From contig JAGXOF010000003.1 of NCBI GenBank assembly GCA_023660035.1, forward strand, positions 1-34,208: DNA of 34,208 nt, read 5' to 3'. The DNA comes from Dehalococcoidia bacterium LH_S1. Its GTDB lineage: Bacteria > Chloroflexota > Dehalococcoidia > SZUA-161 > SpSt-899. The translations under genes and the position numbers were made by a program. The notes under the pieces were generated by a model. That model was not told the DNA's origin, did not search any database, and saw only the letters and a program-made list of their open reading frames with translations. Numbering within the stretch: position 1 is the stretch's first letter; each line of letters begins with the position of its first letter. Of the stretch, positions 8,996 to 33,799 are shown one piece after another.

Positions 8996-9001
8996 AAAGA
9001 T

Positions 9002-9647: not shown

Positions 9648-9961
9648 TGAGGAAGATTCGCAAGAACGACGAAGTGATGGTGATCTCAGGCAAGTATCGC
9701 GGGAGAAAGGCGAAAGTGCAGCGGGCTTTTCCCGACAGGGATTATGTGATTGTGGAAGGGGTCAACATGGTCAAAAGGCACATGAAGTCTACCCAGCAAG
9801 TGAGACAAGCGGGCATTGTGGAAAAAGAGGCTCCTATCCATGTCTCGGATGTGAAGCTTGTATGTAAGAAATGTAATCAGCCTACTCGAGTGGGGTTTAC
9901 TTATCTCGAGGATGGAAGCAAAGTCCGTGTATGCAGGAAGTGCCAAGAGGTGATTGATTAA
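9647..9961 (+). CDS. rplX: 50S ribosomal protein L24 with a CxxC...CxxC C-terminal zinc-ribbon-like segment
   Basis: [23 protein letters not shown]...[12 protein letters not shown]...[11 protein letters not shown]...CRKCQ; ATG at 9647 preferred over GTG at 9644. Confidence 0.96.
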
Positions 9962-10503: not shown

Positions 10504-10515
10504 GAAGGAGTAAAC

Positions 10516-10701
10516 GTGGCCAAGACTTCTCAGATTATGAAATCTCAAAAGACTCAAAAGTATAAGGTAAGACACAGGAATCGTTGTAAGCTTTGCGGCA
10601 GACCTAGGGGGTATATCCGCGAGTTTGGACTGTGTCGCATATGCTTCCGGAAGTTAGCCAATGAGGGACAACTGCCCGGGATTCGGAAGTCTAGCTGGTA
10701 A
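10516..10701 (+). CDS. rpsN: 30S ribosomal protein S14, zinc-binding type (GTG start)
   Basis: [47 protein letters not shown]. Confidence 0.97.
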
Positions 10702-10713
10702 GGGGGGAAACGC

Positions 10714-11106
10714 ATGGATGTAATAGGAGATATGCTAACCAGGATAAGGAATGCCAATATGGTCAGGCACAAGTCCGTGCAGATTCCTGCTTCGAGGCTC
10801 AGAACGGCCGTTGCTAAGGTCCTTAAGAATGAGGGATATATAAATGACTATGAGATACTCAAGGGCGAAACTCCACAAAGAGTAATGAAAATATATCTCA
10901 AGTATGTTGATAATAAGGAAGCCGTAGTGTCGGGACTTGAACGGGTAAGCAGACCTGGCTGCAGGGTGTATGCTGGAAAGGAAGAAGTCCCCAGGGTGTA
11001 TAGAGGATTAGGGATCGCAATATTGTCAACTACCCAAGGGATAATGACCGGCCAGGAGGGGCGGCGGCGTGGTATAGGTGGTGAGGTTTTGTGTAAGGTT
11101 TGGTAG
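10714..11106 (+). CDS. rpsH: 30S ribosomal protein S8
   Basis: MDVIGDMLTRIRNANMVRH...GIAILSTTQGIMTGQEGRRRGIGGEVLCKVW. Confidence 0.97.
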   Translation: MDVIGDMLTRIRNANMVRHKSVQIPASRLRTAVAKVLKNEGYINDYEILKGETPQRVMKIYLKYVDNKEAVVSGLERVSRPGCRVYAGKEEVPRVYRGLGIAILSTTQGIMTGQEGRRRGIGGEVLCKVW

Positions 11107-11154
11107 TAAGTCGAGAGCAGTGTATACACTGCTTTGTATGAGGGTATAGTCAAT

Positions 11155-11706
11155 ATGTCAAAACCGTGGGTAAAAACAATACCTGTTCCAGAGAATGTCA
11201 AGGTAGATATCAAAGGGAATGAAGTGGCTGTGACAGGTCCTAAGGGGACTTTGAGCTATTCTTTCCATACGGATATGTCTGTTAACCTAAGTGATGGGAC
11301 CGTCACAGTGTCGAGACCTACTGACAGCAAGGAGCATCGCACCTTGCTCGGAGTTACTGGTACGCTTATCGCTAATATAGTTCATGGCGTACATGAGGGG
11401 TTCCAAAAGCGGTTGCAGGTTGTAGGAGTCGGGTACCGAGCACAGGCATCAGAGGGTGAACTGATGCTCCGTGTAGGATATGCACAACCGGTTGAGATCA
11501 CACCTCCTCAGGGTGTCTCTGTCACTGTTGAAGAGAACAATGTGATAGTTGTCTCTGGCATTGATAAGGAGCTTGTAGGAGGAGTAGCGGCTAAGATCAG
11601 GGAAGTCAGACCACCTGATGCGTATAAGGGAAAGGGTATCAGGTATGCAGACGAGGAGTTGCATCTTAAACCAGGGAAAGCAGGTAAGATACGAGCCAAA
11701 GGCTAA
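11155..11706 (+). CDS. rplF: 50S ribosomal protein L6
   Basis: [32 protein letters not shown]...[16 protein letters not shown] at 11155 preferred over the ORF-track start 11134. Confidence 0.96.
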
Positions 11707-12044
11707 TGGCGAGGAAAAGGAACAGGGAAACGAAGGCAAGACGCGCAGTTGGCACGGCTAATAGGCCACGCCTTTGCGTCTTTCGTAGCCTGAGATATAT
11801 TTATGGTCAGGTGATCGATGACACCACAGGTCATACCCTTGTGTCAGCTTGTTCGTTTGATCTCAATGGGAATGCATCTGGTTCATCCAAGACTGAGCAG
11901 GCAAAGCAGGTTGGTGATTTGTTGGGTAAAAGGGCTCTGGCGAAAGGAGTTCAACAGGTTGCCTTTGACAGGAGGAGATATAAATACCATGGTCGGGTCA
12001 AGGCACTTGCCGACGGAGCAAGAGAAGCTGGACTGAATTTCTGA
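11706..12044 (+). CDS. rplR: 50S ribosomal protein L18
   Basis: [20 protein letters not shown]...[28 protein letters not shown]. Confidence 0.96.
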
Positions 12045-12054
12045 GGTTTTATAT

Positions 12055-12600
12055 ATGAAGGAAAAGGTTAATCCAGAAGAGCTGAATCTCGCAGAAAATT
12101 TGGTTTATATAAGGCGGGTTGCGAAAACGACAACTGGCGGCAGGAGGCTTGCCTTCAGCGCCCTTATGGTGGTTGGTGATAATGAAGGGCATGTGGGGTT
12201 TGGGCTTGGTAAAGGGAAGGAGATACCGGTTGCTATTAGTAAAGGGACCGCCAGGGCCAAGAAAAACCTCATACGCCTTCCCATGAAGGGGGGTACTATT
12301 ACCCATGAAATAAAGGCTAAGTTCGGAGCTGCTGAGGTTTTTCTCAAGCCCGCTTCTCCAGGAACGGGTGTGATGGCAGGAAGAGCTGTTAGATCTGTGG
12401 TTGAAGCGGCTGGAATAAGGGATATTTTAACGAAGTCCATGGGTAGTTCCAACTCTGTTAATGTGGTGCAGGCGACTCTGAGAGCCTTGAGTTTGCTTAA
12501 AGATCCCCAGGAGGAATTTGTCAAGAGAGGCAAAGTAGCACCCAAATCGGGTGAAGAAAGTAAGTCAGAGGAAAACGTTGAGGAGAGTGAGCAACAGTGA
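12055..12600 (+). CDS. rpsE: 30S ribosomal protein S5
   Basis: VVGDNEGHVGFGLGKGKEIPVAISKGTARAKKNL...DILTKSMGSSNSVNVVQATLRAL. Confidence 0.97.
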   Translation: MKEKVNPEELNLAENLVYIRRVAKTTTGGRRLAFSALMVVGDNEGHVGFGLGKGKEIPVAISKGTARAKKNLIRLPMKGGTITHEIKAKFGAAEVFLKPASPGTGVMAGRAVRSVVEAAGIRDILTKSMGSSNSVNVVQATLRALSLLKDPQEEFVKRGKVAPKSGEESKSEENVEESEQQ

Positions 12601-13043
12601 GGCAAAATGGGTTAAAACCCAGTGTAGGTGCTAAGCAAAAGCGCAAGCAGGTGGGGCGTGGAGTAGGAACCGGGCATGGAACTTATTCTTGTTGTGGCAT
12701 AAAAGGCCAGAACGCTCGCTCTGGTGGCGGTGTGCACCCCCTCTTCGATGGCAAGGCGGACAGTCTGATAAAGTGTCTCCCGAAGAAACGAGGCTTTAAT
12801 AATCCCTTCAGGGTAGATTATAATGCTGTCAATCTTGAGTCTCTTAAAGCCTTTCCTGAGGGAAGCGAGATTACACCAGAGAAGCTGATATCAACAGGTA
12901 TTGTTAAGAGAAAGAGCAAGCCAGTGAAGGTGTTGGGAGAGGGCGATATAGACAGGCAGCTGGTGGTGAAGGCACATAGGTTCTCATGTGTGGCGAGGGA
13001 GAAAATAGAAGCTGCAGGAGGAACAGTAGAGGTGATCCGCTGA
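12597..13043 (+). CDS. rplO: 50S ribosomal protein L15 (GTG start, GTGA overlap with rpsE stop)
   Basis: LKPSVGAKQKRKQVGRGVGTGHGTYSCCGIKGQNARSGG; C-terminal EKIEAAGGTVEVI. Confidence 0.93.
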   Translation: MRQNGLKPSVGAKQKRKQVGRGVGTGHGTYSCCGIKGQNARSGGGVHPLFDGKADSLIKCLPKKRGFNNPFRVDYNAVNLESLKAFPEGSEITPEKLISTGIVKRKSKPVKVLGEGDIDRQLVVKAHRFSCVAREKIEAAGGTVEVIR

Positions 13044-14407
13044 TGCAGCGAACTGCAAAACAGGGTGCAATGCCCAAACTCATGCAGGCGGTCATTGATT
13101 CCCTCCATCACCCTGACCTCAGGCGGAAGCTGTTCATCACTTTTGGCATCCTCGTAATATTCCGTTTTATGGCCCAAATCCCCGTTCCGGGGGTTGATCT
13201 TCAGGCACTTGAGCAGCTTTTTGAGCAGAATCAGCTCTTGGGCATGCTGGACCTGTTTAGCGGCGGTGCTATGCGCAGATTGAGCATAGTTGCCATGGGG
13301 GTTTATCCTTACATAACGTCCACAATTATAATGCAATTGCTTGTGCCAGTTGTCCCCAAGTTGCAGGCGATAGCGAGTGAAGGTGATGAGGGCACGCAGA
13401 AGATCAATCAATATACATACTGGCTTACCGTGCCTTTGGCTATGCTTCAGGGATATGGGCAATTGGTTCTATTTAGCCGGCCTATGTCAGGTATGTCACA
13501 ACCAGCTATCAGTGGCGTGGGGTTGTCCGGGGAAAACTTGCTTCCTACTGTCTCGATGATATTGTGTTTGACGGCGGGCACGATGTTCCTGGTATGGCTG
13601 GGAGACCGGATCACTGAGCATGGCATTGGCAACGGCATCTCAATAATTATATTTGGCGGGATTGTAGCAGTAATGCCAACGAATATAGGGCAAAGCTATC
13701 TGACTGTAGGGGTTGGAGGGTTGCTAAAACTGCTAATACTGCTTATAGCAATCGCATTCTTTATAGTATATGTAAATGAGGGAGCTCGGCGCATTCCCGT
13801 TCAATATTCGAGAAGCATCTTTCGGGGCGGAAGAGTGTATCGGCAAAGCGGTGGGACCCATATCCCGCTTCGAGTGAATTCGGCTGGGATGATCCCGCTA
13901 ATATTTGCTATGGCGATAATGATTTTCCCGGGGACAGTAGCCAGTTATTTTATGAGTCAGTCGGGGGATCCTAATATAGCGAATTTTATTTACAACCTTT
14001 TCGACTCCGGAGGCAATTACTGGTGGTTCTATTGGGGAGCTTACTTCTGGCTCGTCGTTGGATTTACTTTCTTCTACACAATGACCATCTTTCAGCAACA
14101 GAATATACCTGAGACTCTGCAAAAGCAGGGAGGTTTCATACCAGGCATTCGTCCGGGAAAGCCGACTTCCGGGTATCTTAATGCTGTGAATACCCGTATT
14201 ACCTGGGGAGGGGCAATCTTCCTTGGATTGGTTGCTGTAATGCCTCTATTGGGTGGAGTTCTCGTTGGTGCCTCGGTGGCCAATGCACAGAACCTGATGA
14301 TCCTCAGCAGCGCGGGAATGCTGATTGTGGTGGGAGTGGTTCTGGATACCATGAGGCAGATGGAGGCACAACTCTTGATGCGTCATTATGAAGGATTTAT
14401 TAAGTAA
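13043..14407 (+). CDS. secY: Preprotein translocase subunit SecY
   Basis: FITFGILVIFRFMAQIPVPGVD...GGAMRRLSIVAMGVYPYITSTIIMQLL...EHGIGNGISIIIFGGI; ATG at 13043. Confidence 0.97.
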   Translation: MQRTAKQGAMPKLMQAVIDSLHHPDLRRKLFITFGILVIFRFMAQIPVPGVDLQALEQLFEQNQLLGMLDLFSGGAMRRLSIVAMGVYPYITSTIIMQLLVPVVPKLQAIASEGDEGTQKINQYTYWLTVPLAMLQGYGQLVLFSRPMSGMSQPAISGVGLSGENLLPTVSMILCLTAGTMFLVWLGDRITEHGIGNGISIIIFGGIVAVMPTNIGQSYLTVGVGGLLKLLILLIAIAFFIVYVNEGARRIPVQYSRSIFRGGRVYRQSGGTHIPLRVNSAGMIPLIFAMAIMIFPGTVASYFMSQSGDPNIANFIYNLFDSGGNYWWFYWGAYFWLVVGFTFFYTMTIFQQQNIPETLQKQGGFIPGIRPGKPTSGYLNAVNTRITWGGAIFLGLVAVMPLLGGVLVGASVANAQNLMILSSAGMLIVVGVVLDTMRQMEAQLLMRHYEGFIK

Positions 14408-14417
14408 GAGGTAGTAA

Positions 14418-15059
14418 ATGAATATAATACTGTTAGGTGCACCGGGTGCAGGTAAGGGAACGCAAGCTGTGGTTTTATCACAAAAGTTATCCCTAGCACA
14501 TATCGCATCGGGGGATTTGTTCAGGCAGGCGCAGAATAGCGGGACTGAATTAGGGAATACAGCTAAGTCCTACATGGAGAAGGGCCTTCTTGTGCCTGAT
14601 GAAATAACAGTTAAAATGGTATTGGAGCGAATTTCTGAGCCTGATTGCGCCAATGGGTTTATCCTGGATGGTTTCCCGAGGAACCTCGAACAGGCCAAAG
14701 CTTTAGAGAAAGTTCTGAATGACAAAGGCCAGGGTATTGATAAGGTAGTCTACATAAAGGTGCCCGAGGAAGAGCTTGTGAGGCGCCTTGCGGGACGCCG
14801 GATTTGTCGGAATTGCCAAACTCCTTATCATGTAACTGATATGCCTCCGAAGGTGGAGGGGAAGTGTGATCGGTGTGGTGGAGAGCTTTATCAGAGGCCT
14901 GATGATAAGGAAGAGACGGTGCGCAGCCGGATAAAAGTCTATTCCGAGGAGACAGCTCCCTTGGTTGATTACTATAGGAAAGCCGGGAAATTGCTGGAGG
15001 TAGATGGTGCACAGGGGGCGAAGAAGGTAACTAACGAATTAGTAGATGCTTTAACATAG
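14418..15059 (+). CDS. adk: Adenylate kinase with Cys4-type lid
   Basis: MNIILLGAPGAGKGTQA...FILDGFPRNLEQAKAL...GRRICRNCQTPYH...CDRCGGELYQRPDD. Confidence 0.97.
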   Translation: MNIILLGAPGAGKGTQAVVLSQKLSLAHIASGDLFRQAQNSGTELGNTAKSYMEKGLLVPDEITVKMVLERISEPDCANGFILDGFPRNLEQAKALEKVLNDKGQGIDKVVYIKVPEEELVRRLAGRRICRNCQTPYHVTDMPPKVEGKCDRCGGELYQRPDDKEETVRSRIKVYSEETAPLVDYYRKAGKLLEVDGAQGAKKVTNELVDALT

Positions 15060-15068
15060 GAGAGTGAC

Positions 15069-15818
15069 ATGGGGATTATTGTTAAGTCACCACGTGAATT
15101 GGAGGGGATGAGGAAAGCCGGAAAGATCACGGCAGCTATCCTTGATACTTTAAGAAGTGAGGTAAGGCCGGGTATAACCACAAGTATGTTGGATGATGTC
15201 GCTGTTAGGGAATTGGAACGGCATGGTGCTGTCTCTTCTTTTAAAGGATATAGGGGGTACCCTAATTCTGTTTGTGCTTCTATAAATGAGCAGCTTGTTC
15301 ACGGTATCCCTGGCGAGCGGAAGTTGAAAGAAGGGGATATAATAAGTATAGACTTTGCTTCAGTTTATGAAGGCTTTCACGGCGACGCAGCGTTCACAGT
15401 GGGGGTAGGAGAGATAAGTGCTGAGGCAGAACGGCTGCTTGCCACGACTGAGGGAGCTTTGAAAGCTGGCATATCAGCGGCACGTGAAGGGGCGCATTTG
15501 GGAGATATTTCCGCTGCCATCCAGGAGTATGGGGAAAGTCGAGAATTCTCTGTGGTTCGGGAATATGTGGGACACGGGATAGGAAGAGAGATGCACGAGG
15601 ACCCGCAGATTCCAAATTTCGGTAGTCCTGGGCAGGGCCCAGTGCTAAAGAGGGGGATGACCATGGCCTTGGAACCTATGGTAAATGCCGGGGGGTGGCG
15701 GACAAAGGTGCTCCCTGACCAGTGGACTGTGGTTACGGCTGACGGTAGTCTTTCAGCTCATTTTGAGAATAGTATCGCTATTGCCGGTGATCAGGCGGAG
15801 ATATTAACCCTCTTGTAA
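15069..15818 (+). CDS. map: Type I methionine aminopeptidase
   Basis: IIVKSPRELEGMRKAGKI...NEQLVHGIPGERKLKEGDIISIDFASVYEGFHGDAA...YVGHGIGREMHEDPQIPNF. Confidence 0.97.
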   Translation: MGIIVKSPRELEGMRKAGKITAAILDTLRSEVRPGITTSMLDDVAVRELERHGAVSSFKGYRGYPNSVCASINEQLVHGIPGERKLKEGDIISIDFASVYEGFHGDAAFTVGVGEISAEAERLLATTEGALKAGISAAREGAHLGDISAAIQEYGESREFSVVREYVGHGIGREMHEDPQIPNFGSPGQGPVLKRGMTMALEPMVNAGGWRTKVLPDQWTVVTADGSLSAHFENSIAIAGDQAEILTLL

Positions 15819-15880
15819 GCGGGGGCAGCTTCAGAGCTTAGAAGAGGTTAAGGACTGAAAGCTTATTATTAGGGAGGTTG

Positions 15881-16096
15881 ATGGCAAAAAAAGAAGCCAT
15901 TGAGGTAGAGGGAACGGTTGTAGAGCCGTTGCCCAATGGCATGTTTAGGGTGGAATTACCTAACGGACATATAGTGCTTGCTCATGCTTCGGGCAAGATG
16001 CGAAGATATTTTATAAAGGTTGTTCGAGGTGATAGGGTCTTGGTGGAGCTTTCACCGTACGATTTGTCGCGTGGAAGGGTGACTTATCGGCTTTAG
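15881..16096 (+). CDS. infA: Translation initiation factor IF-1
   Basis: [69 protein letters not shown]. Confidence 0.96.
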
Positions 16097-16120
16097 TATA
16101 GAGGGGTTAGGTGATATAAT

Positions 16121-16234
16121 ATGAAAGTCAGAGCATCAGTTAAACCAAGGTGCAATAAGTGCAAAGTGGTAAAACGTAAGGGAGTACTTAGGGTCATTTG
16201 CTCCAATCGCAGGCATAATCAGAGGCAGGGCTAG
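16121..16234 (+). CDS. rpmJ: 50S ribosomal protein L36 (not in the supplied ORF track)
   Basis: Manual translation [37 protein letters not shown]. Confidence 0.96.
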
Positions 16235-16277
16235 GAGAGTATGATGGCTAAATTCATTATCTTAAGGAGTAAACAAA

Positions 16278-16667
16278 ATGCCACGCGTTGCAGGCGCTGA
16301 TATTCCAGCAAACAAACATGTGGAAATAGCTCTCCGGTATATCTATGGGGTTGGTCCCACCCTGAGCAAACAGGTGGTGGAAAAGGCCGGCATCGATCCA
16401 ACGATAAGGGGGAAGGATCTTGATGATAATGATCTGGATCGCATCCGTGAGGTAATTGATAAAGACTATAAGGTTGAAGGTGACTTGAGGAAGGAGATCA
16501 ATTTCAACCTCAAGCGCCTTGTTGAGATAGGGAGCTACCGTGGTGTACGCTATCGGCGAGGGTTGCCCGTGCATGGACAAAGAACCAAGACTAATGCCCG
16601 GACGAAACGTGGTCCGCGCAAGACCGTGGCTGGAAGAGGCCGCCGTGGTGGTTCCGGTAAGAAGTAG
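16278..16667 (+). CDS. rpsM: 30S ribosomal protein S13
   Basis: [32 protein letters not shown]...[35 protein letters not shown]. Confidence 0.97.
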
Positions 16668-16718
16668 CACAGGCGTTCATCTTTTATCACTAACCGGGTG
16701 TTTCTTAAGGAGGAGATT

Positions 16719-17117
16719 GTGTCGCCAAAGAGAAAAGGAACTGCAGGTATCAAAAGACGTGAGCGTAAAGGTATAGCGAAGGGTTGTGCTTATATACAGT
16801 CTACCTTTAACAATACAATCATTACGCTGACTGATGACAATGGAAATGTTATAACCTCTGGCAGTGCCGGGACAGTGGGATTTAAAGGAACCCGCAAGGG
16901 GACTGCTTTCGCTGCTCAAAGGGCTGCTTCCGAGGTGGCTCGTCGTGGTGCTGAGCATGGCTTGCAGCAGGTCGATGTTTATATAAAGGGCCCTGGCAGC
17001 GGGCGGGAAGCCGCGATTCGGACCCTGCAGTCCAGTGGTCTTAACATTGCAAGCATAAAGGACATCACCCCTACGCCGCATAATGGGTGTCGTCCACGGA
17101 AAAGGAGGCGGGTATAA
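16719..17117 (+). CDS. rpsK: 30S ribosomal protein S11 (GTG start after AGGAGGAG)
   Basis: [22 protein letters not shown]...[17 protein letters not shown]...[18 protein letters not shown]. Confidence 0.96.
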
Positions 17118-17131
17118 CCCAGGGAGGGAAT

Positions 17132-17761
17132 ATGGCTCGTTACATGGGGCCTGTTTGTAGAATTTGTAGACGTCAAGGTGAGAAATTAATGCTCAAGGGG
17201 GGACGGTGTTTTACCCCTAAATGCCCCTTGGAGCGGAAGCGGTATCCGCCAGGACAAAGAGGCACTGGGCGTCCGAAGAAGATGTCCGAGTATGGTGTTC
17301 GACTTCTGGAGAAACAGAAAGCGAAGCATATCTATGGTGTACTGGAGCGCCAGATGCGGAGGCATTTTGCTCAGGCAGAGAAACTTCCTGGCCGGGCAGG
17401 GGAAAACCTGGTGACCGTGTTGGAAACCAGGTTGGATAGTGTAATTTACCGTGCTGGGTTTGTTGAGAGCCGTCGTCAAGCCAGGCAGTTGGTTCAGCAT
17501 GGATACTTTACCATCAATGGTCGCAGGACGAATATACCATCGGTTTTGGTAAAACCGGGTGATGTCATTGCATGGAAGCAGGGTAAGGACAAACGTGTTC
17601 CTTACGAATCTGCTGCCCAGAGCGTTGCTGCTAAGCATGTGCCGGCATGGTTGAGCGTCGATGATAAGTCCCTTGCAGTAAAGGTTCTGTCCCAACCGTC
17701 CAAAGAAGATATCGATGTTACTATAAATGGAAGGCTAATAGTAGAGCTTTATTCGAGGTAA
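17132..17761 (+). CDS. rpsD: 30S ribosomal protein S4, Cys4 type
   Basis: ARYMGPVCRICRRQGEKLMLKG...CPLERKRYPPGQRG...RLDSVIYRAGFVESRRQARQLVQHGYFTING; ATG 17132 follows AGGGAGGGAAT. Confidence 0.96.
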   Translation: MARYMGPVCRICRRQGEKLMLKGGRCFTPKCPLERKRYPPGQRGTGRPKKMSEYGVRLLEKQKAKHIYGVLERQMRRHFAQAEKLPGRAGENLVTVLETRLDSVIYRAGFVESRRQARQLVQHGYFTINGRRTNIPSVLVKPGDVIAWKQGKDKRVPYESAAQSVAAKHVPAWLSVDDKSLAVKVLSQPSKEDIDVTINGRLIVELYSR

Positions 17762-17766
17762 AGGTT

Positions 17767-18813
17767 GTGTTGCAGGAGGTTGAGAATTTGGCTGAGGATA
17801 TCAATCCGACAGTAAACTATGAAGTAATCTCCGAGAATCGGGGGGTTTTTGCAGTAGAGCCGCTGGGGCCCGGTTACGGAACTACCTTAGGGAATCCTCT
17901 GAGGAGGGTCCTTCTAAGCTCACTGCCGGGTGCTGCAGTGACGACAGTCAAAATAGACGGTGTTCAGCATGAATTTTCCACTATTCCTCATATGAAAGAG
18001 GATGTGTTGGAATTCCTGTTGAATGTGAAGGGAATCAGGCTGCGCTATCTCTCGGAGCGTTCTGACACACTTCACCTTGAAGCGAGTGGTGAAGGTGAGG
18101 TGTGTGCCAGGGATATAAAGCCCTCAGCCGTGTTTGAGATTATTAACCCTGATCACCATCTCGCTACCTTGGAGTCTCCTGAAGCAAAGCTTGATGTGGA
18201 GTTGACAGTTGAAATAGGAGAGGGGTATGTGATTGCCCCTTCTGCAAGTGGCCAACCCATAGGGGTTTTGCCTGTAGACGCGGTTTTTACCCCGATTCGG
18301 AATGTGAATTATAGAGTTGAGAAGACCAGGATTGGACATCGGGGAGATTATGATCGGTTAATCCTTGATGTCTCTACTGATGGCACTGTTCCTCCTGAAA
18401 AAGCCGTTGTCGAGGCTGCTCAGATACTGTCCAATCAGTTTGGTATGTTTGAGGTACTGGGTAGACCGAGGGAAGAGGAAGCCGTTGCTGGATCAGGGGA
18501 GGGTGGTGCTTTGGCAGGCGAGGCTGATATTCCCCTTGACCAGTTGGAGTTGTCTCTGAGGACTATGAATGCCCTTCGGAGGGCTGGGATCACCACTGTG
18601 GGAATGCTGATGGGAAAGAGCAAGAAGGAATTGTTGAACCTGAGCAACTTTGGGCCGAAGTCCTGGGATGAGGTTCAGGATTGTTTAGGGCAAGCTGGTT
18701 TGACTAAGGGCTCTGAAGGTGAAGCCGCAGCGGGTGAAGAGAGTGAAACCGAAGAAATGAAAGAGATGAGGCAAAAGTTGCAAGAGAAATTCCCGGTTAG
18801 GAGGGGTAAGTGA
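17767..18813 (+). CDS. rpoA: DNA-directed RNA polymerase subunit alpha
   Basis: [46 protein letters not shown]...[23 protein letters not shown]. Confidence 0.97.
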
Positions 18814-25404: not shown

Positions 25405-25965
25405 ATGTGGGAGGTCGGGCTAGTAAAGCAGGGAAGGACAATAAGGGAAGAGCAGGTGACAACAGGCAAACTGCGGCGCATTATCGATGGTTCCTATCTT
25501 CCATTAGCCTTGAGGCTCGTTCTGGGAGTCATTTTTATCACAGCGGCTGTGGGTAAGCTAGCCTATCCGGCTCAGTTAGCCGCCGAGGCTGAGGTTGTGG
25601 AAATATATGCCGGCCTTTTCCTCTGGCTTCCTTACAAGCTCGTTTCCGCCTACATGGCGGTCCTTCCCTGGGTGGAAGCTGTACTGGGCGCTTTCCTGGT
25701 GTTGGGGTTGTTCCCGAGAGTCTGTAGCGCTATCTTTATCCCGATAGTCCTGAGTTTTATCGGCGCCAACGCGGTGTTGTTCCGGGGTGCTCTCGGTACA
25801 CATGAGGAATGTCCTGATTGCTTTGGAATGCTGTATGTACTTTCGCATGAGCTTGCGCTGGTGATAGATATACTGATGCTGGCGGTGGCTGTTCTGATCG
25901 TGCGCAGCCGTTCCAATTTTCTCAGACTGGACCTGTGGTTTCCCCGGCGTTATCTCAAATGTTAA
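25405..25965 (+). CDS. DoxX/MauE-like integral membrane protein
   Basis: ALRLVLGVIFITAAVGKLAYPAQ...LPWVEAVLGAFLVLGLFPRV...GTHEECPDCFG; four hydrophobic segments. The ORF track starts at 25189 inside the SDR; ATG 25405 preferred. Confidence 0.75.
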   Translation: MWEVGLVKQGRTIREEQVTTGKLRRIIDGSYLPLALRLVLGVIFITAAVGKLAYPAQLAAEAEVVEIYAGLFLWLPYKLVSAYMAVLPWVEAVLGAFLVLGLFPRVCSAIFIPIVLSFIGANAVLFRGALGTHEECPDCFGMLYVLSHELALVIDILMLAVAVLIVRSRSNFLRLDLWFPRRYLKC

Positions 25966-26803
25966 TCTCCATCCCGTCGTAGGCGAAGCTGATTCTCCCG
26001 TCTGCTGATTCCAGAGCACTATAGTCGTCGTAGCTTCTGTTCCAGTATTCTTCCAGGTGGACGAAAAGCACCTGCCTGGCCCCAAGGCGTTCTGCCAGTT
26101 GCAGGGTATCCTCGAACGTGTAGAGAGTGGTTCTGGAAATGTGATCGGGTGGGTACTCGAAATCGTGTTTTAATCCCGTCTCGAATATCCCCGGCTGGAT
26201 AATGAGCAGGTCAGGTTTCTGGACCTCGATGCGGTGTTCCGGGAAGGGCTTTATATCGCAGGGAGCGTAGACTACCCTCTGCCCGTTCTGCTCGAAGACG
26301 TGTACGAAGGAGATCTGGGAACCGCCGTCGATGGGGATGGCCGTGATGTGCACGTCTTCTACCTGGATTTCGCCTTTAAAGATTTCGATGTAAACGAATC
26401 CGCTCTCCCTGTAGAAATCGATCACAGGTCCGTATTGAGACTGTATTGACGCTATGCGTTCAGCAAGTTCCTCCTGGAGCAGCAGGCGGATTTGCTTTTC
26501 CGGATAGGCTTTCCAACTGCGGAAGTCGAGGGCTATCTGCTCTACCACTCGAAACCCCTCTACATGATCGGGGTCAAGGTGACTGAAGATGAGGCTGTCG
26601 ACGCGGCGGATGTCTTCCCGATTCAAAAGCCCTGCGATCTCTGCGGGCGTGTCTATCAGCAGGTTGAGATCATGCAGAAAAGCAGAAGGACCTGCCCTGG
26701 AATAAGGGAGGCCCTTCTGTCTCGCTTCCTGACATATTCTGCATTGACAAAGCGGCTTGGGGATAGGTGAGCATCCGCCGGAGCCCAGGATTGTCCACTT
26801 CAT
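25955..26803 (-). CDS. MBL-fold metallo-hydrolase, PhnP-like, variant metal motif
   Basis: MKWTILGSGGCSPIPKPLCQCRICQEARQKGLPYSRAGPSAFL...LIFSHLDPDHVEGFR...VVYAPCDIKPFP. Confidence 0.8.
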   Translation of the reverse strand: MKWTILGSGGCSPIPKPLCQCRICQEARQKGLPYSRAGPSAFLHDLNLLIDTPAEIAGLLNREDIRRVDSLIFSHLDPDHVEGFRVVEQIALDFRSWKAYPEKQIRLLLQEELAERIASIQSQYGPVIDFYRESGFVYIEIFKGEIQVEDVHITAIPIDGGSQISFVHVFEQNGQRVVYAPCDIKPFPEHRIEVQKPDLLIIQPGIFETGLKHDFEYPPDHISRTTLYTFEDTLQLAERLGARQVLFVHLEEYWNRSYDDYSALESADGRISFAYDGMEINI

Positions 26804-26810
26804 ATTGCTA

Positions 26811-28289
26811 CTATTTGAAGGGGTCCCAGCGAATCGTCTGTTTCTCATAGGCAGCCGGGAATTGCCTCAGGAACTCATCGTAGTAGTATAGTTCCTTGAA
26901 TGTGGCAAACGGCATGCCGTAGTACGACTTGGGAGTCTCTTTGATTCCCTCGGGATCCACTACCGTGGATACTATCCTGTCCATGACATCATCAATGCCT
27001 GTTCCCATGGCAAATCTCAGTTTCTCCCGTTTGTAAATTCGCTCGGGGAGCATGTCCTTAAAGGCTTCTCTCAGGATATACTTCTCCGTCTGATTCTCGC
27101 CGTAGATCTTCCATTCCATGGGGATTTTACGGCTAAAGGCCAGCACTTTCGGGTCCAGGAACGGGGTCTGGTAGACGATGCCGTTGGCCATCCACCCTCT
27201 ATCCAGACGCCTGAGTGCCGTATTATACGCTATAGCCAGCAATTTCTTAGCGAGTTCCTCTCTGTGCTCATCGCTGGTCACGTGCTCGCTTTTCAGCACC
27301 ATGCGATATCCGCCGAACAGCTCGTCGGCGCCTTCACCGACCATAATGCTGTCACAGTATTGCTTGGCCATTTTCGAGACGTAGTAATTGGCGATCACGC
27401 CGGATATGCAGTCTTCATCAAAGCTCTCCAGGTACCATACTGCTTGGGGGATGAACTCGGATATCTCCTGATCTGTAATGTGGTAGATATTGTGTTCAGC
27501 TCCCAGGAATTCGGCCATAAGTTTGGCATTCTCGAGGTCTGGAGCGTTAGCGCTTTCAATAGCACCGGTGAAGAGATGCAAGTCTTTATTGTACTGCTTG
27601 GCTACCGCTGCGATAATGGAGCTATCCAGTCCGCCACTAGCCGAGACGGTGTTTACGCCCTTCATTCTTTTCCGGACTGCCTCTATCATGAGGTCCCTTA
27701 GCACCTTCGTTGCATGCTCCAGGTTTTCAGGCTCAGGAACATCAGCAAAGTATGGCTCAAATGGCTTTAAGCCGTCTTTGGTGCTGTATATGTGCCCGGG
27801 AACTAGCTCATGCATATCGAAGCGGATGTTGCCTATAAGCCCTTTCATCTCCGTGCTAAAACAGAAAAGGTCATTCTCTGTTCCGTAAAAGAGCGGCCTG
27901 GCTCCCACTGCGTCGCGGGCTATAATCGTTTCTCCGTTGTCCACCACGGCGCAGCAGTAACTTCCTTCCATATGCGTGAAGCAATTCTTGCCGTACTTTT
28001 GATAGTACTCTTTGAAGAGCTCTGTATCGGTCTGGCCCTCGGGTCTTTCATTGAACAGCTCTCCGTCAAAGAGGATATAGGGAGCTCTGGCGACTGCTGC
28101 ACACTGCGTCCTTTCAGGTGTCAGATTAACTTCAGCTGCTCCCAGTGCTCCTGTCCTGTCAGGGAGGGTCTGGACGATCTTGTTGTCCGGTCCACGGTGG
28201 TGCATCAGGTTAACCGCTTTCTGCACCTTTTCTGTCGCTTCTGTAAGCTGCTTTCCTTTTGTCGATATTATTCCAGCTATCGCTGCCAT
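26811..28289 (-). CDS. Asparagine synthetase (AsnB)-like protein lacking the N-terminal glutaminase cysteine (MAAIAGI)
   Basis: Class II GATase-like N-terminus (HHRGPDN...YILFDGELFNE...GARPLFYG) plus synthetase domain (SASGGLDSSIIAAVAK, GEGADELFGGY). ATG at 28289 preceded by AAAGGAGAG. Confidence 0.93.
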   Translation of the reverse strand: MAAIAGIISTKGKQLTEATEKVQKAVNLMHHRGPDNKIVQTLPDRTGALGAAEVNLTPERTQCAAVARAPYILFDGELFNERPEGQTDTELFKEYYQKYGKNCFTHMEGSYCCAVVDNGETIIARDAVGARPLFYGTENDLFCFSTEMKGLIGNIRFDMHELVPGHIYSTKDGLKPFEPYFADVPEPENLEHATKVLRDLMIEAVRKRMKGVNTVSASGGLDSSIIAAVAKQYNKDLHLFTGAIESANAPDLENAKLMAEFLGAEHNIYHITDQEISEFIPQAVWYLESFDEDCISGVIANYYVSKMAKQYCDSIMVGEGADELFGGYRMVLKSEHVTSDEHREELAKKLLAIAYNTALRRLDRGWMANGIVYQTPFLDPKVLAFSRKIPMEWKIYGENQTEKYILREAFKDMLPERIYKREKLRFAMGTGIDDVMDRIVSTVVDPEGIKETPKSYYGMPFATFKELYYYDEFLRQFPAAYEKQTIRWDPFK

Positions 28290-28360
28290 TCACACTCTCC
28301 TTTCGTGTCGGTTCTATGTCCACATATTTGTTACTTGCTCTCTTTCGCCAGACCTTCTGG

Positions 28361-28380
28361 ATTCCGGCTTTCGCCGGAAT
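28361..28380. repeat. REP-like palindrome ATTCCGGC-TTTC-GCCGGAAT in a CTGGATTCCGGCTTTCGCCGGAATGACGAA context
   Basis: Perfect 8-bp stem, 4-nt loop; the antisense reads the well-known spurious peptide FVIPAKAGIQ. Lies between the AsnB-like and MttB-like genes. Confidence 0.75.
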
Positions 28381-28432
28381 GACGAAATTGCCACGCCTAA
28401 AAAGACGCAATCCTATCGGGTGAACGCTTGCT

Positions 28433-29968
28433 CTACTTGTTGTAAACGTTCAACCGCGGGAGTACCCCGGGTATTTGCTCAAATATCTTTTTAGTGGTGG
28501 CTTCATCTATGTGCTCCACAGGTTGAGAAAGGAGCTCGTTCACCTTGTCACAAGCAAGCTCTAATGCCTGGTCGCTTTCTCTATCCCCTTCGAATGGATA
28601 GGGTTGTGTAATCTGCCCACTTTTCAGCATAGGGCGGATTGACCGGATATAAAGCTTTTGCTCCGTGTTCATTACCTCTCTTATCTGTTTGAGAACTGTG
28701 TCGGTCTCATCCTGGTTGATCTGTGGGTCCCTCAAGAAGAACTTCAGCATCTGAAAATGCGCGTCATCCAGAACTGTCTGAGGCAGACAGAATGTGGAAT
28801 TACAATCGAAGAGGCCGTATGTGAGATGGAGGTATTGAGGTCCGCTCAGTGTCACCAGTATGTTCGAGAAAAGCCTTTCTACGGAGGACTGTGTGCCGGG
28901 TACTTTTGCGTCGCACACTCCAGAGCTCCCGTAGCAGGGTAATTTATAGAATCTGGCTAATTGAGCACAGTCGACGTTATACTGGCTGGTCTCAGGTGCG
29001 CCATAGGAATCGCTCAGGTCGTCAAGCCTGGCTCTTACGGGTACGCTTCCGTAAATGATCGGTGCTCCGGGGTTCACCAGCTGGCTCAGCGTTATGCCTG
29101 CCAGAACCTCAGCGTTTATCTGGGCCAGGATGCCCATTTCCTTAACGGGGGCAGTGGTCCCAGCCTGAGGTGAGGATGAAACAACTACAGGCAATTCCCT
29201 TCTGCAAAGTTCTATCATGGTCTGTGTCGTATCATTAACGAATTGCAGAGGGCTTTTTACCAGACAGGTGATAAAGGAAATGATTGGGTTCTCTTTTAAT
29301 TTCTCTTCACTGCCGACGATCAATTTGGCCATGTTGACGACGTTGTCCAGCTGCTCCAGGTTTGTTAATCCCATCATGAAGTGTTTGGTGGTATTATTCA
29401 CTGAAGCGAAGAACTTGTTAACGTCCTTGTTGTCATCTGTTATGTCGTCGTCCTGAATGTTCACTGTGCGGATAAAGGCGTCCACGGTCTCAAGGTGTTC
29501 GCATACATGAGCAGCTTTAGCCAGGTCTTCAACCATACCACGCCGTGCGTGGAATTCAGGCACCTTAGCCTCGGTGCTTGAGCCGGACTTCTTTACATAA
29601 GTTTGAAAGTCAACGTCCAGCCAGACATTTGTCTCCGATCCCGTAACGAAGAACACCCTTGGTTCATCACCGTGCATTATCAAGCTGTTATCCTCGTTCC
29701 TGGCTCCCAGCTTGACCGTCTTCGGTGCGCTATCAAGAGCTTTGGAAACGAGGTTCTCCGGTATTTTGATCGACCATGTTGGGTGCTCGCCGCCGGAGAC
29801 AAATGTAACCTCTGCACCATTACTGCTAAATATGTCCGCAGCCTCCTTGTTAAAGCAGAACAGCCCGGGGTCCATCAGAACATCCAAAGAACTCTGATGG
29901 ATCTGTTCAAGTTGCTCCTTGCTTACCCTTTCATAGGGATTAGTGATTAAGGTCCCTTCCCTTGGCAT
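28433..29968 (-). CDS. MttB (trimethylamine methyltransferase) superfamily protein, non-pyrrolysine
   Basis: YERVSKEQLEQIHQSSLDVLMDPGLF...NNTTKHFMMGL...PIISFITCLVKSPLQF...GAPIIYGSVPVRARLDDLS. ATG 29968 with AGGAGGAATGAA upstream; ORF open without in-frame TAG. Confidence 0.9.
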   Translation of the reverse strand: MPREGTLITNPYERVSKEQLEQIHQSSLDVLMDPGLFCFNKEAADIFSSNGAEVTFVSGGEHPTWSIKIPENLVSKALDSAPKTVKLGARNEDNSLIMHGDEPRVFFVTGSETNVWLDVDFQTYVKKSGSSTEAKVPEFHARRGMVEDLAKAAHVCEHLETVDAFIRTVNIQDDDITDDNKDVNKFFASVNNTTKHFMMGLTNLEQLDNVVNMAKLIVGSEEKLKENPIISFITCLVKSPLQFVNDTTQTMIELCRRELPVVVSSSPQAGTTAPVKEMGILAQINAEVLAGITLSQLVNPGAPIIYGSVPVRARLDDLSDSYGAPETSQYNVDCAQLARFYKLPCYGSSGVCDAKVPGTQSSVERLFSNILVTLSGPQYLHLTYGLFDCNSTFCLPQTVLDDAHFQMLKFFLRDPQINQDETDTVLKQIREVMNTEQKLYIRSIRPMLKSGQITQPYPFEGDRESDQALELACDKVNELLSQPVEHIDEATTKKIFEQIPGVLPRLNVYNK

Positions 29969-30079
29969 TTCATTCCTCCTCTGATTTCTATCGTGTACAG
30001 TATGCTCGGCTCTGTTTGTCAACGCTTGGATTGCAGTACTGTGCTGGTTCGATGCCGAGGATATTCTTTCGGCGTTCTC

Positions 30080-30757
30080 TTAACCGACCAAGCTTGTAAC
30101 CACTCTTACAGCGTCGAAGCCGTCAGCACCGTAGCCGTCAGCACCGATATTGTTGGCAAACTCCTCGGTAATGGGCGCTCCACCTATAACCACCTTGACC
30201 TGATCTCTGACCCCGGCTTCTTTTAATACTTCAATCACGCCTTTCATGTTCCCCATGGTACTGGTGAGGAGTGCTGATAATCCGACAACCATAGGTTTCT
30301 CTTCCTTGATGGCATTTGCTATGGTTTCAGCCGAAATATCATTGCCTAAATCATTAACGATGTAGCCATTCCCCCGCAGTAATATGGCCACGATGTTCTT
30401 CCCGATGTCGTGAAGATCCCCTTTCACTGTAGCCAGAAACACTTTACCCTTGGGTTCAATTCCGCTCTGGGCAAGGAGGGGATCCAGCATTTCCATGGCT
30501 ACCCCGACTGTTTCAGCCGCAGCTAACATGTCCGGTATGAAGAACTCCTTGGATTCGAATTTATCCCCCACTATGGTCATGGCGTCGGTTATGGTATCTA
30601 GTATCGTACGTGGCTCGTAATTATTATCCAGAGCTTCCTGGACGAGCTCCTTCACACCCGGTTGCCCTGTCATTTCATCTTCCAGTCCTTCATCGTCCTT
30701 CGTGATTCGTCCCTGTATCACGTTTTCCTTCATTGCGCCAAGTATGTCTTCTGTCAT
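30080..30757 (-). CDS. Corrinoid (B12-binding) protein, MtbC/MttC-like
   Basis: Helical cap (FFIPDMLAAAETVGVAMEMLDPLL) and B12 motif KVFLATVKGDLHDIGKNIVAILLRGNGY...GLSALLTSTMGNMK...GGAPITEEFANNIGADGYGADG. ATG 30757 after AAAGGGAGGGGGC. Confidence 0.95.
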   Translation of the reverse strand: MTEDILGAMKENVIQGRITKDDEGLEDEMTGQPGVKELVQEALDNNYEPRTILDTITDAMTIVGDKFESKEFFIPDMLAAAETVGVAMEMLDPLLAQSGIEPKGKVFLATVKGDLHDIGKNIVAILLRGNGYIVNDLGNDISAETIANAIKEEKPMVVGLSALLTSTMGNMKGVIEVLKEAGVRDQVKVVIGGAPITEEFANNIGADGYGADGFDAVRVVTSLVG

Positions 30758-30813
30758 GCCCCCTCCCTTTATTCGAGGATTTTGCTTGATCAATCCCTTG
30801 TAGGGGTGGCTTC

Positions 30814-31623
30814 TTACTCCACGAGCAGGCCTTTTCTATTGGCCTTTATGAACGCCTTGCAGTTAGGGTCATTGCCGGTGAGCAAATCAGCCAACTTGAT
30901 GAACGGTGTCATCTTTGAGTCCCGCGGATCGAGAATCGCTGCGTCGAGCCCGGCATAAGCTGCCATAAGCAGAGTAGCTCTGTTAACCATCTTTCTCGCT
31001 GGCAAGCCGAATGAGACATTGCTCAGTCCCACAACGGTCTTGGCCTCCGGATAGCGGCTTTTGATTCCCTCTATCGTCTTCATTGTTACCATACCCTGTG
31101 TGGGATCCACGGAAATGGGAAGCACCAGTGGGTCGAAGAAGATGTTCTCAAGTTTTATCCCTAAGGATTGTGCCTTCTCCACGATCTGACCGCAGGCGGT
31201 TAGCCTATCCTCAACATTATCCGGTATGCCCTCTGCCCCATGAGCCAGAGCTACCAGCAAAGCTTGCCGCTCGGCGGCCAGGGGAAGAATGGCCTCCATC
31301 CTCTCTGATTCGGCACTCACCGAGTTGATTGTTACCTTATCGCCATTGTACTTGTCGAGGCCAGCTTTGATGACCTCCGGGCTATCGCTGTCGATTACCA
31401 GGGGTTTATCCGTTACCTCCTGGACGATTCCTACCAGCCACTGCATAGCCACCGCTGCTTCTTCGCTGGATTCCCCTCCCCTTGTTGCGTTTACGTCAAG
31501 AAAGTCCGCCCCTGCATTCTCCTCCTCCTGGGCCAGGTTTTGTAAAAACTCCTTGTCCCTGTCAGCAATTGCTTGCCCGACCTTTTTATTTGTAGCGTTT
31601 ATCACTTCCCCGATTACTAACAT
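30814..31623 (-). CDS. Methyltetrahydrofolate:corrinoid methyltransferase (MtgA/AcsE/MetH pterin-binding family)
   Basis: MLVIGEVINATNKKV...GADFLDVNAT...KPLVIDSDSPEVIKAGL...INSVSAE...VGLSNVSFGLPARKMVNRATLLMAAYAGLDAAILDP. Confidence 0.95.
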   Translation of the reverse strand: MLVIGEVINATNKKVGQAIADRDKEFLQNLAQEEENAGADFLDVNATRGGESSEEAAVAMQWLVGIVQEVTDKPLVIDSDSPEVIKAGLDKYNGDKVTINSVSAESERMEAILPLAAERQALLVALAHGAEGIPDNVEDRLTACGQIVEKAQSLGIKLENIFFDPLVLPISVDPTQGMVTMKTIEGIKSRYPEAKTVVGLSNVSFGLPARKMVNRATLLMAAYAGLDAAILDPRDSKMTPFIKLADLLTGNDPNCKAFIKANRKGLLVE

Positions 31624-31682
31624 ATCCCCCCTCTTGTAGTTAAGCGTTGAAATGGAAACACTGAACCCGCTGACCTCCTGAG

Positions 31683-33122
31683 CTAGCCTTTGATGTTCTG
31701 TATTTCCGAGAGTATTCGCCCTCTTACCTCAGTGGGTAAGTTTCGTGCGGGGCCTGCCAGAATCTCGTCCACTCTCTCAGCAGCTCTCTGGAATGTATCC
31801 TTCGATCCTTTGGTCTCCCAATCTTCACGGAAGTCCTTATCGCTCAAAGTAGGGGTGTAGTGTTCCTTGCGCATGAAGCGGCGTGTATGGTTGGTGGTGA
31901 CAAAATTCCCGCCTGGCCCGGTCTTTTTAATAACATCCAACCCGATAGACTCGTCATCCACTCTTATACCTTCCACAGCTCGCATTACCATTCCCAGTAT
32001 CTCATTGTCGATGACAAGCTTTTCCTCTGACATGCTCATAGCAAATTCCATGAGTCCTGCCGCGTCGTGAATGAAATTGGCCCCCGCTAATGCGCACAGC
32101 GTGCTTGTTATGGCGGACTCGTATCCGCTTTGAGAGTCCAATACCTTTGAATCAGTCATGCCGCCTGTAGCATAGTAAGGTATCTTGTAGAATTGAGCCA
32201 TCTGGGCGGCACCGGCATTGACGAGCCCTGATTCCACCGTTCCTGCCAGATACTTGAGGTCAGAAAGGTCAGTTGAAGTAGCTACTGAACCGTAGATAAC
32301 TGGTGCTCCTTCCTTTATTAGCTGAGAAAGCATCACCCCCATAAGTGAGTCCACCACCTGGATCACCAGGTTCCCTGCGAGAGTGACCGGCGATGTGGCC
32401 CCTGTCAGCGGTTCGGCGGGAACGACGAGAGGTATGCCTGCCTCAACTATAGGTCTTGCCAGATCTCCGTAGCTCTTATCGAGTATCATGGGGCTTATTG
32501 CGCATGTAATCATGGAGATAATGGGACGCTTGCGGAGCTCTTCGGGTGAACCAGCGATCATTTCCGCCATCTTTATAACTTGCTGCACGCCCTCTGGAGT
32601 ATATACGCCCCCCATAATGTGTTTGGTGGTATTATCCAGCCCGGCGAAGAAACGATTTATGTCTACTTCTTCGACAGGTAAGTCATTAGGATAGGTGCAG
32701 AGCATAAATAGATGGATATTGTCCAGGCCGTCAGCCAATCTGGCTATGTCCTTGAGGTCCTCAAGCGTGGCATGGCGTTTCTCCCCTTTGCGTTGGTCCC
32801 ATATGTAAAGGGCGGTGCCACCAGTACCAGCGTGTACGCGGGGTCCGCCCAGTAGTAGATCGTGTTTTTCCTCTTGCCCGCACAGATTGATTTCAGCGGG
32901 GGCCATGTTAATGAGCTCCATGACCTTACTCTCAGGGACGCGCGCGATTCTGTTCTCTATATCTACCTTCGCTCCGCCCTTCTCGAAGAGGCCCATGGCC
33001 GCTTCCGAATTGACTTGGAAGCCCACTTCCTCGATAATTTGCATTGCAGATTGGTGAATTTTGTTTATAGATTCCTCTGTAAGAGGCTTATAGCTGCCTC
33101 CTTCTACTCCTTTGTTGCTCAT
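31683..33122 (-). CDS. MttB (trimethylamine methyltransferase) superfamily protein, second paralogue, non-pyrrolysine
   Basis: YKPLTEESINKIHQSAMQIIEEVGFQV...DNTTKHIMGGVYTPEGVQQVIKMAEMIAGS...APVIYGSVATSTDLSDLKYLAGTVESGLVNAGAAQMAQFY. ATG 33122 overlaps the upstream stop (ATGA). Confidence 0.92.
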   Translation of the reverse strand: MSNKGVEGGSYKPLTEESINKIHQSAMQIIEEVGFQVNSEAAMGLFEKGGAKVDIENRIARVPESKVMELINMAPAEINLCGQEEKHDLLLGGPRVHAGTGGTALYIWDQRKGEKRHATLEDLKDIARLADGLDNIHLFMLCTYPNDLPVEEVDINRFFAGLDNTTKHIMGGVYTPEGVQQVIKMAEMIAGSPEELRKRPIISMITCAISPMILDKSYGDLARPIVEAGIPLVVPAEPLTGATSPVTLAGNLVIQVVDSLMGVMLSQLIKEGAPVIYGSVATSTDLSDLKYLAGTVESGLVNAGAAQMAQFYKIPYYATGGMTDSKVLDSQSGYESAITSTLCALAGANFIHDAAGLMEFAMSMSEEKLVIDNEILGMVMRAVEGIRVDDESIGLDVIKKTGPGGNFVTTNHTRRFMRKEHYTPTLSDKDFREDWETKGSKDTFQRAAERVDEILAGPARNLPTEVRGRILSEIQNIKG

Positions 33123-33799
33123 ACTATCCTTTCCGGACAATCGGTCTTGTCACACTTTTTGCAAGGGTTATAAGTGTCTGCTCCGCTATCGGGTGTACCA
33201 AGCCCTATAATGCCGGAGACTGATTTCTGTGGAATCATCAAGCAGCCGTCGGTCAAGCGGACCCCTATGGAACCGCCATCGACAGCCTGAAAGATCGCCC
33301 TTTGTTGTTCGGTGTCCCAGTCGCACCAGCCGGGGCTCAATCGCCGACTTAGAACGAGGTATTCCCTGCTGGCTACTCTCTCTATGCGGTCCCGAACAGA
33401 GTCGGCTACGCTTTGAACAGCAACCGAGCCTATAGCATCCAGACATGATGCCTGGAGCATGAGCCCATTTTTGACCAACCGTTTTGACATGTTTTCCAGA
33501 TAATCATCAATTGTGGCTATAAATACTGCCACCTTCTCACAGTGTTCCAGTAGCCCTGCGAGGGTTTTGCTCTGTAGTGCAGCCATATCCTCCACAACTA
33601 CCAATGAACCATGTACTAACTCGATATCTTTCACGGTATATGAATATGATGGCTGGATGAGGGACGGAGCATTCTCCGTGTACTCGTCGATCAACGACAC
33701 GGCCCGCCCTCTGGGTTTGGAACCATTTTCATAGCCCATGTATTTGTAGAGTTCACTTTTGTCTATATCAACTTCTATATCCTGAGTTGCGCTTGTCAT
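33119..33799 (-). CDS. MetH (vitamin B12-dependent methionine synthase) activation-domain-like protein with C-terminal Cys cluster
   Basis: RRLSPGWCDWDTEQQRAIFQAVDGGSIGVRLTDGCLMIPQKSVSGIIGLG plus C-terminal NPCKKCDKTDCPER; ATG 33799 preceded by GGGAGGTGGAAG. Confidence 0.85.
   Translation of the reverse strand: MTSATQDIEVDIDKSELYKYMGYENGSKPRGRAVSLIDEYTENAPSLIQPSYSYTVKDIELVHGSLVVVEDMAALQSKTLAGLLEHCEKVAVFIATIDDYLENMSKRLVKNGLMLQASCLDAIGSVAVQSVADSVRDRIERVASREYLVLSRRLSPGWCDWDTEQQRAIFQAVDGGSIGVRLTDGCLMIPQKSVSGIIGLGTPDSGADTYNPCKKCDKTDCPERIV

Follow-up and report, generated by a model that had tools for sequence, protein, structure and literature searches.

Contig JAGXOF010000003.1 of Dehalococcoidia bacterium LH_S1 (assembly GCA_023660035.1) was analysed over its full length of 34,208 nucleotides. 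This stretch, referred to below as the window, is the entire contig C139 of a metagenome-assembled genome (MAG) of 1.12 Mb, which consists of 205 contigs and is 64% complete. Between positions 25955 and 33799 of its minus strand lies a cassette of seven collinear genes, which in sediment Dehalococcoidia very probably strips methyl groups from a small molecule via B12 proteins and feeds acetyl-CoA synthesis. All seven genes that an earlier sequence-only reading of this DNA had listed are present, in the order it gave, as judged from profile matches and from an analysis of gene starts, which were picked from ribosome-binding sites and homologues.

The cassette begins with a MetH-activation-domain-like protein of ~226 aa (33119..33799; PF02965, 25.6 bits, just above the 25-bit cut-off). 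Its gene has an ATG start at 33799, preceded by GGAAGGGAGG, and the protein carries a C-terminal CxxCxxxxC motif shared by nearly all cassette homologues. Through an ATGA overlap (33119/33122), also claimed by the sequence-only reading, this gene is coupled to that of MttB2, a non-pyrrolysine MttB-family methyltransferase of 479 aa (31683..33122; PF06253, 1.6e-110, 369.9 bits). Next come MeTr, a methylcorrinoid:tetrahydrofolate (THF) methyltransferase of 269 aa (30814..31623; PF00809, and NF005719 with 289.5 bits at a cut-off of 259), a corrinoid protein of 225 aa in the position before MttB1, denoted CorrA (30080..30757; PF02310 and PF02607), and MttB1, a divergent non-pyrrolysine MttB-family methyltransferase of 511 aa (28433..29968; PF06253, 7.7e-59, 199.5 bits). 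Both MttBs exceed the curated PF06253 cut-off of 25 bits. A gap of 143 bp (28290..28432), which in most relatives is the site of a second corrinoid gene (CorrB) and here contains a 21-bp repeat in a single copy, separates MttB1 from an AsnB-like ligase of 492 aa (26811..28289; PF00733 at 7.4e-51 and GATase_7). The N-terminus of the latter reads MAAIAGI instead of MCGIAG, which bears out its description as Cys-less. The last gene encodes a metallo-beta-lactamase (MBL)-fold protein of PhnP/PqqB type, 282 aa long (25955..26803; PF12706). A complete set of MtxB/MtxC/MtxA type, that is, a substrate methyltransferase, a corrinoid protein and a methylcorrinoid:THF methyltransferase, is thus encoded together. 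The same contig carries a ribosomal-protein operon with secY, adk and rpoA (5132-18813), and therefore represents a normal chromosomal contig of the MAG.

Both MttB reading frames are open, with no in-frame stop (amber codon) for pyrrolysine, and the corresponding alignment column is occupied by Val or Ile in 93/93 MttB1 sequences and by Met in 67/67 MttB2 sequences, confirming that the two enzymes are of the non-pyrrolysine kind. MttB1 of the window is 24% identical to MtgB (2QNE) and 29% to pyrrolysine-containing MttB, MttB2 is 33% identical to both, and the two paralogues share 28% identity with each other. Homologues of MttB1 constitute one side of a fully supported tree branch, and those of MttB2, including one extra copy in genome G013, form a separate clade. 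Neither falls with MtgB or pyrrolysine-containing MttB, the only two reference enzymes placed, which, as far as these two go, agrees with the expectation, set beforehand, that they lie outside characterised clades. MttB1 carries an insert of ~18 residues near residues 120-140 and is missing the C-terminal GPGGxF..HTRK motif common to MtgB and MttB2.

The MttB1 alignment was scanned against one genome per species (84,980 species), and the best 80 of 109 related stretches were used; loci with an MttB1 profile score >900 make up the core group. Dehalococcoidia/Chloroflexi account for most of the 80 loci; a smaller number come from Deltaproteobacteria, Desulfobacteraceae or Syntrophaceae, and two are from Bacillota. 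All follow one set gene order: activation protein, MttB2, MeTr, (corrinoid protein), MttB1, corrinoid protein, AsnB, (second AsnB), (MBL). Of the 43 core loci with at least 2.8 kb downstream, 42 contain an AsnB-family gene, and in nearly all core loci the Cys-less form directly follows MttB1 and its corrinoid gene. Among core loci with enough contig, MttB2 lies near MttB1 in 39/41, the activation protein is found in 30/35, MeTr in 27/41 and MBL in 18/34. These counts are slightly conservative, because the script used to call open reading frames (ORFs) miscalls some genes (e.g. shadow ORFs over the corrinoid gene in L085, L099 and L109). The association of AsnB with the methyltransferases is not a local coincidence, and conservation of the AsnB-like and MBL genes with the methyltransferases in relatives, on which the sequence-only reading had staked its proposal, held. 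Conserved synteny also refutes the view that the genes are chance neighbours or a binning artefact. The fragmentation and 64% completeness of the source MAG could be cited for such a view; however, the order is repeated in dozens of independent contigs, some of them long (204 kb in L059, 288 kb in L082 and 383 kb in L088), and is also found in other phyla, leaving it practically no probability.

Several variants of the cassette deserve mention. Closely similar cassettes occur in contigs labelled Deltaproteobacteria (L057, L059) and Dehalococcoidia (L065, L067), reflecting either recent cross-phylum transfer or mis-binning. On contig C1 of G013 the cassette is split (L033, L259): activation protein, MttB2 and MeTr are ~650 kb away from MttB1, corrinoid protein, AsnB and MBL on the same contig, and the reading frames of MttB1 and MBL appear broken. 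In a distant branch, MttB1 and its corrinoid gene are followed by a SAM-methyltransferase-like protein of 400-420 aa with a weak domain match (L118:11361-12584 and 15 more loci). Family profiles gave no assignment for this protein. Glycyl radical enzymes of the PFL2/dehydratase/choline-lyase type lie downstream of the same gene pair in L113:15110-17629, L122:6941-9583, L125:2972-5437 and L128:7742-10195; neither of the two tested, from L113 and L128, scored above the curated cut-off of any family with a named function.

The window carries a reduced form of the cassette, in which the usual corrinoid gene after MttB1 is missing. Corrinoid genes flank MttB1 on both sides in 28 loci, follow it only in 59 and precede it only in four, some genomes entering these counts twice via two loci. 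Two of these four lie at contig ends (L068, L091) and a third, L085, results from a miscall, which leaves the window as the clear case. Its corrinoid protein has a mean identity of 62% to homologues in the CorrA position and 57% to those in the CorrB position, and forms a long branch inside a set holding every A-position protein of the tree. The two positions are not cleanly separated in that tree (six changes), so that CorrA and CorrB denote position and not strict orthology. A second close corrinoid copy was not found in the 64%-complete MAG, and the gap lacking CorrB contains, at 28361-28381, the 21-bp palindromic repeat CATTCCGGCGAAAGCCGGAAT, present in three copies in the MAG in total. 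The simplest reading is that the second corrinoid gene was lost in the window genome, in which case the single remaining protein would have to serve both MttBs. The proposal that two MttBs share one corrinoid protein therefore applies to the window, where it is a derived state, and not to the cassette in general, given the 28 loci with two corrinoid genes.

Each part of the cassette was searched for in the same 393 genomes of the class, with Cys-less AsnB called at E <= ~1e-160. MttB1 was found in 50 genomes, Cys-less AsnB in 41 and MBL in 22. With kinship ignored, MttB1 is present in 39 of the 41 genomes with Cys-less AsnB (5.2 expected) and in 21 of the 22 with MBL (2.8 expected); the corresponding Fisher p values, ~1e-20 and lower, likewise ignore relatedness and are not evolutionary chance probabilities. 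In the one MBL genome without MttB1 (G078) the contig stops within the corrinoid gene beside AsnB and MBL, and in G279, where no MttB1 was seen, a corrinoid gene and AsnB lie close to the contig start. As a control, stretches of up to 20 kb at seven further MttB-family loci in these genomes were inspected, and neither AsnB nor MBL was present in any of them. The loci are mostly of a second dual-MttB type, with MeTr, a corrinoid protein and two adjacent MttBs of two further clades (L252 in G002, L253 in G005, L254 in G016); in L255 (G013) the MttB pair alone was seen. Neither AsnB nor MBL was found at L252-L255.

The AsnB-like protein probably combines a dead glutaminase with an intact PP-loop synthetase, and would be a ligase with another substrate. 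Like AsnB and human asparagine synthetase (ASNS), its top sequence and structure matches, it has two domains, the PP-loop SGGLDSS, GEGxDE and the catalytic Lys; unlike them, it lacks Cys1 and Asn74, and the equivalents of T336, T337 and R339 are substituted. According to the alignment and residue survey, SGGLDSS, GEGxDE and the Lys matching Lys449 of AS-B are invariant or nearly so. This Lys is equivalent to the essential Lys466 of human ASNS, its essentiality having been reported in AS-B (PMC6748925). In human ASNS, the corresponding Glu364 and Asp367 were modelled to contact the alpha-carboxylate (via water) and the alpha-amino group, and T336 is located at the surface of the synthetase site (PMC6748925). 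Where N-termini are readable, the window-type AsnB_a, AsnB_b and a more distant form have Cys1 replaced by Ala, Ser or Pro and Asn74 by Asp. Together they constitute a single clade (46 rows, support 100/100), in which the equivalent of human Thr336 is Asp or Ser and that of Arg339 is Ser, His, Lys, Tyr, Val or Cys. The AsnB_c form has kept Cys1, Asn74 and the Arg339 equivalent, and yet another Cys-less form (L111, L113, L120) keeps the Arg and sits outside the 46-row clade; the tree requires two changes of Cys state. Since the synthetase motifs are kept and Cys1, Asn74, Thr and Arg are lost, adenylation and amide formation are plausible, use of glutamine is not, and aspartate is doubtful as a substrate. 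Beta-lactam and carbapenam synthetases are AsnB-family ligases that adenylate a carboxylate with no use of glutamine. Beta-lactam synthetase and CarA are not the closest relatives of the cassette ligase, however: among solved structures, 1CT9 scored 281 bits vs 121 for 1JGT and 98 for 1Q15, and for the AlphaFold model (mean pLDDT 86) the nearest Foldseek matches were human ASNS and E. coli AsnB. No lactam pathway genes were noticed nearby.

Homologues of the MBL protein form one tight subfamily, 57-74% identical to that of the window, and in the 393 genomes no sequence falls between this subfamily and the threshold. The subfamily occurs with the cassette wherever the contig permits checking. 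Like PhnP and PqqB, the protein has the MBL fold, an N-terminal CxCxxC loop (Cys19, Cys21 and Cys24 invariant in 18 aligned homologues) and the Asp/His of the second metal site; unlike in these enzymes, the HxHxDH metal motif expected of a PhnP-type protein is replaced by HLDPDH (QLDPDH in L086). A Foldseek search with the structural model (mean pLDDT 74.7, low confidence around the CxCxxC loop) returned the PhnP-family diphosphatase 6b9v as the best match (3.9e-14), followed by ELAC-like/YhfI proteins and PqqB (4z7r), with 1zkp also among the best hits. Proximity of the model to PhnP-type enzymes and to PqqB, a cofactor-synthesis protein with the MBL fold, is what one would expect if the AsnB-like and MBL proteins modified a cofactor or protein (the corrinoid, the corrinoid protein or MttB) instead of the methylated substrate, and AsnB-family enzymes, to which there are weak matches, are known in natural-product and lasso-peptide maturation. 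Such a role is nevertheless improbable: both genes are missing where these genomes encode other corrinoid methyltransferases, and genes for maturation or cobamide biosynthesis were not seen to recur beside the cassettes, although annotation did not extend to every neighbour. Corrinoid amidation of the CbiP/CobQ kind was set aside, as it involves another enzyme family and no cobamide genes were noticed nearby.

The destination of the methyl group is indicated by the rest of the genomes. CdhD/CdhE-type subunits of carbon monoxide dehydrogenase/acetyl-CoA synthase (CODH/ACS) were detected in 14/14 cassette genomes tested, the MAG of the window included, and so was a protein of the methylenetetrahydrofolate reductase (MTHFR) family. 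In the class sample, CODH/ACS is present in 43 of the 50 MttB1 genomes vs 18.2 expected. The suggestion that the cassette feeds the Wood-Ljungdahl pathway is thereby borne out at the level of gene content. In Dehalococcoidia, metF was reported missing from all genomes known by 2020, with a corrinoid-dependent core-MetE in use (PMC7005905); the MTHFR-family protein is found in all 14 cassette genomes despite that statement. The same report, together with the MetH-like character of the activation-domain protein, could be taken to mean that the cassette makes methyl groups mainly for methionine and not for energy. We regard this as quite unlikely in view of the CODH/ACS subunits and MTHFR-family protein in every cassette genome tested; in addition, no cassette was noticed to contain a homocysteine methyltransferase, though not every neighbour was screened with profiles for this enzyme. 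The precedent for such a role in methionine supply is a dual methionine synthase/glycine-betaine demethylase of marine Pseudomonadota (PMC12478193).

Some clues to the substrate come from neighbouring genes. An OpuA-type glycine-betaine ABC transporter is encoded within or beside the cassette in L070, L076, L110 and L130. A PF00857 isochorismatase-family hydrolase lies between MeTr and MttB1 in L061, L064, L101 and L124 and right before MttB1 in L060; its best NCBIfam matches are RutB and biuret amidohydrolase, both far under cut-off. A hydrolase of this family was also seen, in one of these two positions, at L042:4162-4893, and a histone-deacetylase-like amidohydrolase gene downstream of distant cassettes (L112:13591-14649, L110:14444-15502). 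On the basis of the transporter, the PF00857 hydrolase and adjoining nitrogen-assimilation genes, a betaine-like, nitrogen-containing compound is tentatively favoured.

The nitrogen genes may also be read differently, with the AsnB-like and MBL proteins serving nitrogen assimilation: ammonia that the substrate releases, or that is required along with it, would be fixed as an amide, the genes being clustered for co-regulation and the methyltransferases still demethylating. A Cys-intact AsnB_c of the same subfamily indeed occurs in a nitrogen-assimilation cluster (glutamine synthetase (GS), PII, Amt and a split GltS) in L047, and L041 has a related AsnB, its N-terminus cut off, beside GS/PII/Amt/NrpR. 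NrpR/GS/PII/Amt adjoin the cassette in L088 and L035, GS/PII/Amt do so in L080, and a true GlnA lies directly behind AsnB or MBL in L082, with homologues in L085, L086 and L117. However, neither the glutaminase residues nor the synthetase-site Thr and Arg, which an asparagine-making enzyme should keep, persist in the Cys-less clade. Moreover, Cys-less AsnB adjoins MttB1 and its corrinoid gene in nearly all core loci, whereas nitrogen genes are close in only ~7, and AsnB is absent from the other MttB loci inspected in these genomes. A nitrogen-assimilation role is thus unlikely, though less so than a role in methionine synthesis or in cofactor or protein modification.

The pathway that we propose is as follows. 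MttB2 and MttB1 would each move a methyl group from a small methylated compound, most likely carboxylate-bearing and betaine-like, to the Co(I) form of a corrinoid protein, and where a relative has two corrinoid genes, the two MttBs are probably served by one each. The MtgA-like MeTr would hand the methyl group to THF, the MetH-activation-like protein would return oxidised corrinoid to Co(I), and methyl-THF would join the Wood-Ljungdahl pathway at CODH/ACS. The methyl transfers and corrinoid reactivation are deduced from what is known of these families, and we hold the demethylation core with considerable confidence. More speculatively, the Cys-less AsnB-like enzyme may adenylate a carboxylate of the substrate or product at the expense of ATP and join it to ammonia or an amine, and the MBL protein may hydrolyse an intermediate. 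The chances that the ligase acts on a compound of the pathway appear about even, whereas participation of the MBL protein is on the doubtful side. For the explanation as a whole, that is, a corrinoid demethylation cassette with a ligase acting on a substrate or product carboxylate and MBL on an intermediate, we likewise put the odds at about even.

Several observations tell against it. Roughly half of the core loci that have room for MBL do not contain it. In distant relatives (mostly 51-58% identity) a SAM-methyltransferase-like protein or glycyl radical enzyme often replaces AsnB, and in a few core loci (L100, L104) the Cys-intact AsnB_c is the sole AsnB, so that the Cys-less ligase cannot be an absolute requirement of the MttB core. 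Only four loci have an adjacent OpuA transporter, and the nitrogen-assimilation genes (GS, PII, Amt, NrpR) adjoining several cassettes fit a nitrogen role for the ligase as well.

Among characterised systems, the cassette resembles the glycine betaine demethylation system MtgB/MtgC/MtgA of Desulfitobacterium hafniense in having a non-pyrrolysine MttB, a separate corrinoid protein and an MtgA-like methyltransferase, with methyl transfer to THF. It differs in its two MttBs of other clades and often two corrinoid proteins, and in the addition of a MetH-type activation protein, a ligase and an MBL protein. In the choline pathway of Eubacterium limosum, MthK-MthB-MthC-MthA, MthK was described as the first enzyme known to the authors to modify a substrate ahead of its demethylation by an MttB-family protein (PMC12155760). 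Both systems encode an ATP-dependent enzyme beside an MttB-family demethylase; MthK, however, is a kinase, while the cassette partner is an AsnB-family ligase for which action on the substrate is proposed here. A literature search, of partial coverage and hence weak as evidence, returned no description of an MttB with an AsnB-family partner or of this cassette in Dehalococcoidia.

Few substrates are known in the very large non-pyrrolysine MttB superfamily, MthB being counted as the sixth member with a known one (PMC12155760). An enzyme that constantly accompanies an MttB strongly hints at the chemistry of its substrate, and the cassette provides such a clue for two unassigned MttB clades, in sediment lineages that are uncultured and little understood in their energy metabolism. 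The MthK kinase is the only substrate-modifying MttB partner found in the literature searched; an AsnB-family ligase would be the second, and chemically different. The cassette offers proteins that can be tested directly, namely two MttBs, one or two corrinoid proteins, MeTr, the ligase and MBL; in L039 of G017 all of these are intact, with both corrinoid proteins. As a bolder possibility, which we put at roughly one in three, the Cys-less AsnB clade may be a new class of ATP-dependent substrate-conditioning ligases, the amide conjugate of a methylated ammonium carboxylate being made or used for two dedicated MttBs, with an amide-cleaving enzyme (MBL, or isochorismatase- or deacetylase-type hydrolases in relatives) acting last. 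If so, the cassette would constitute a hitherto undescribed pathway for breaking down a methylated nitrogen compound in anoxic sediments, spread across Dehalococcoidia and reaching into Thermodesulfobacteriota.

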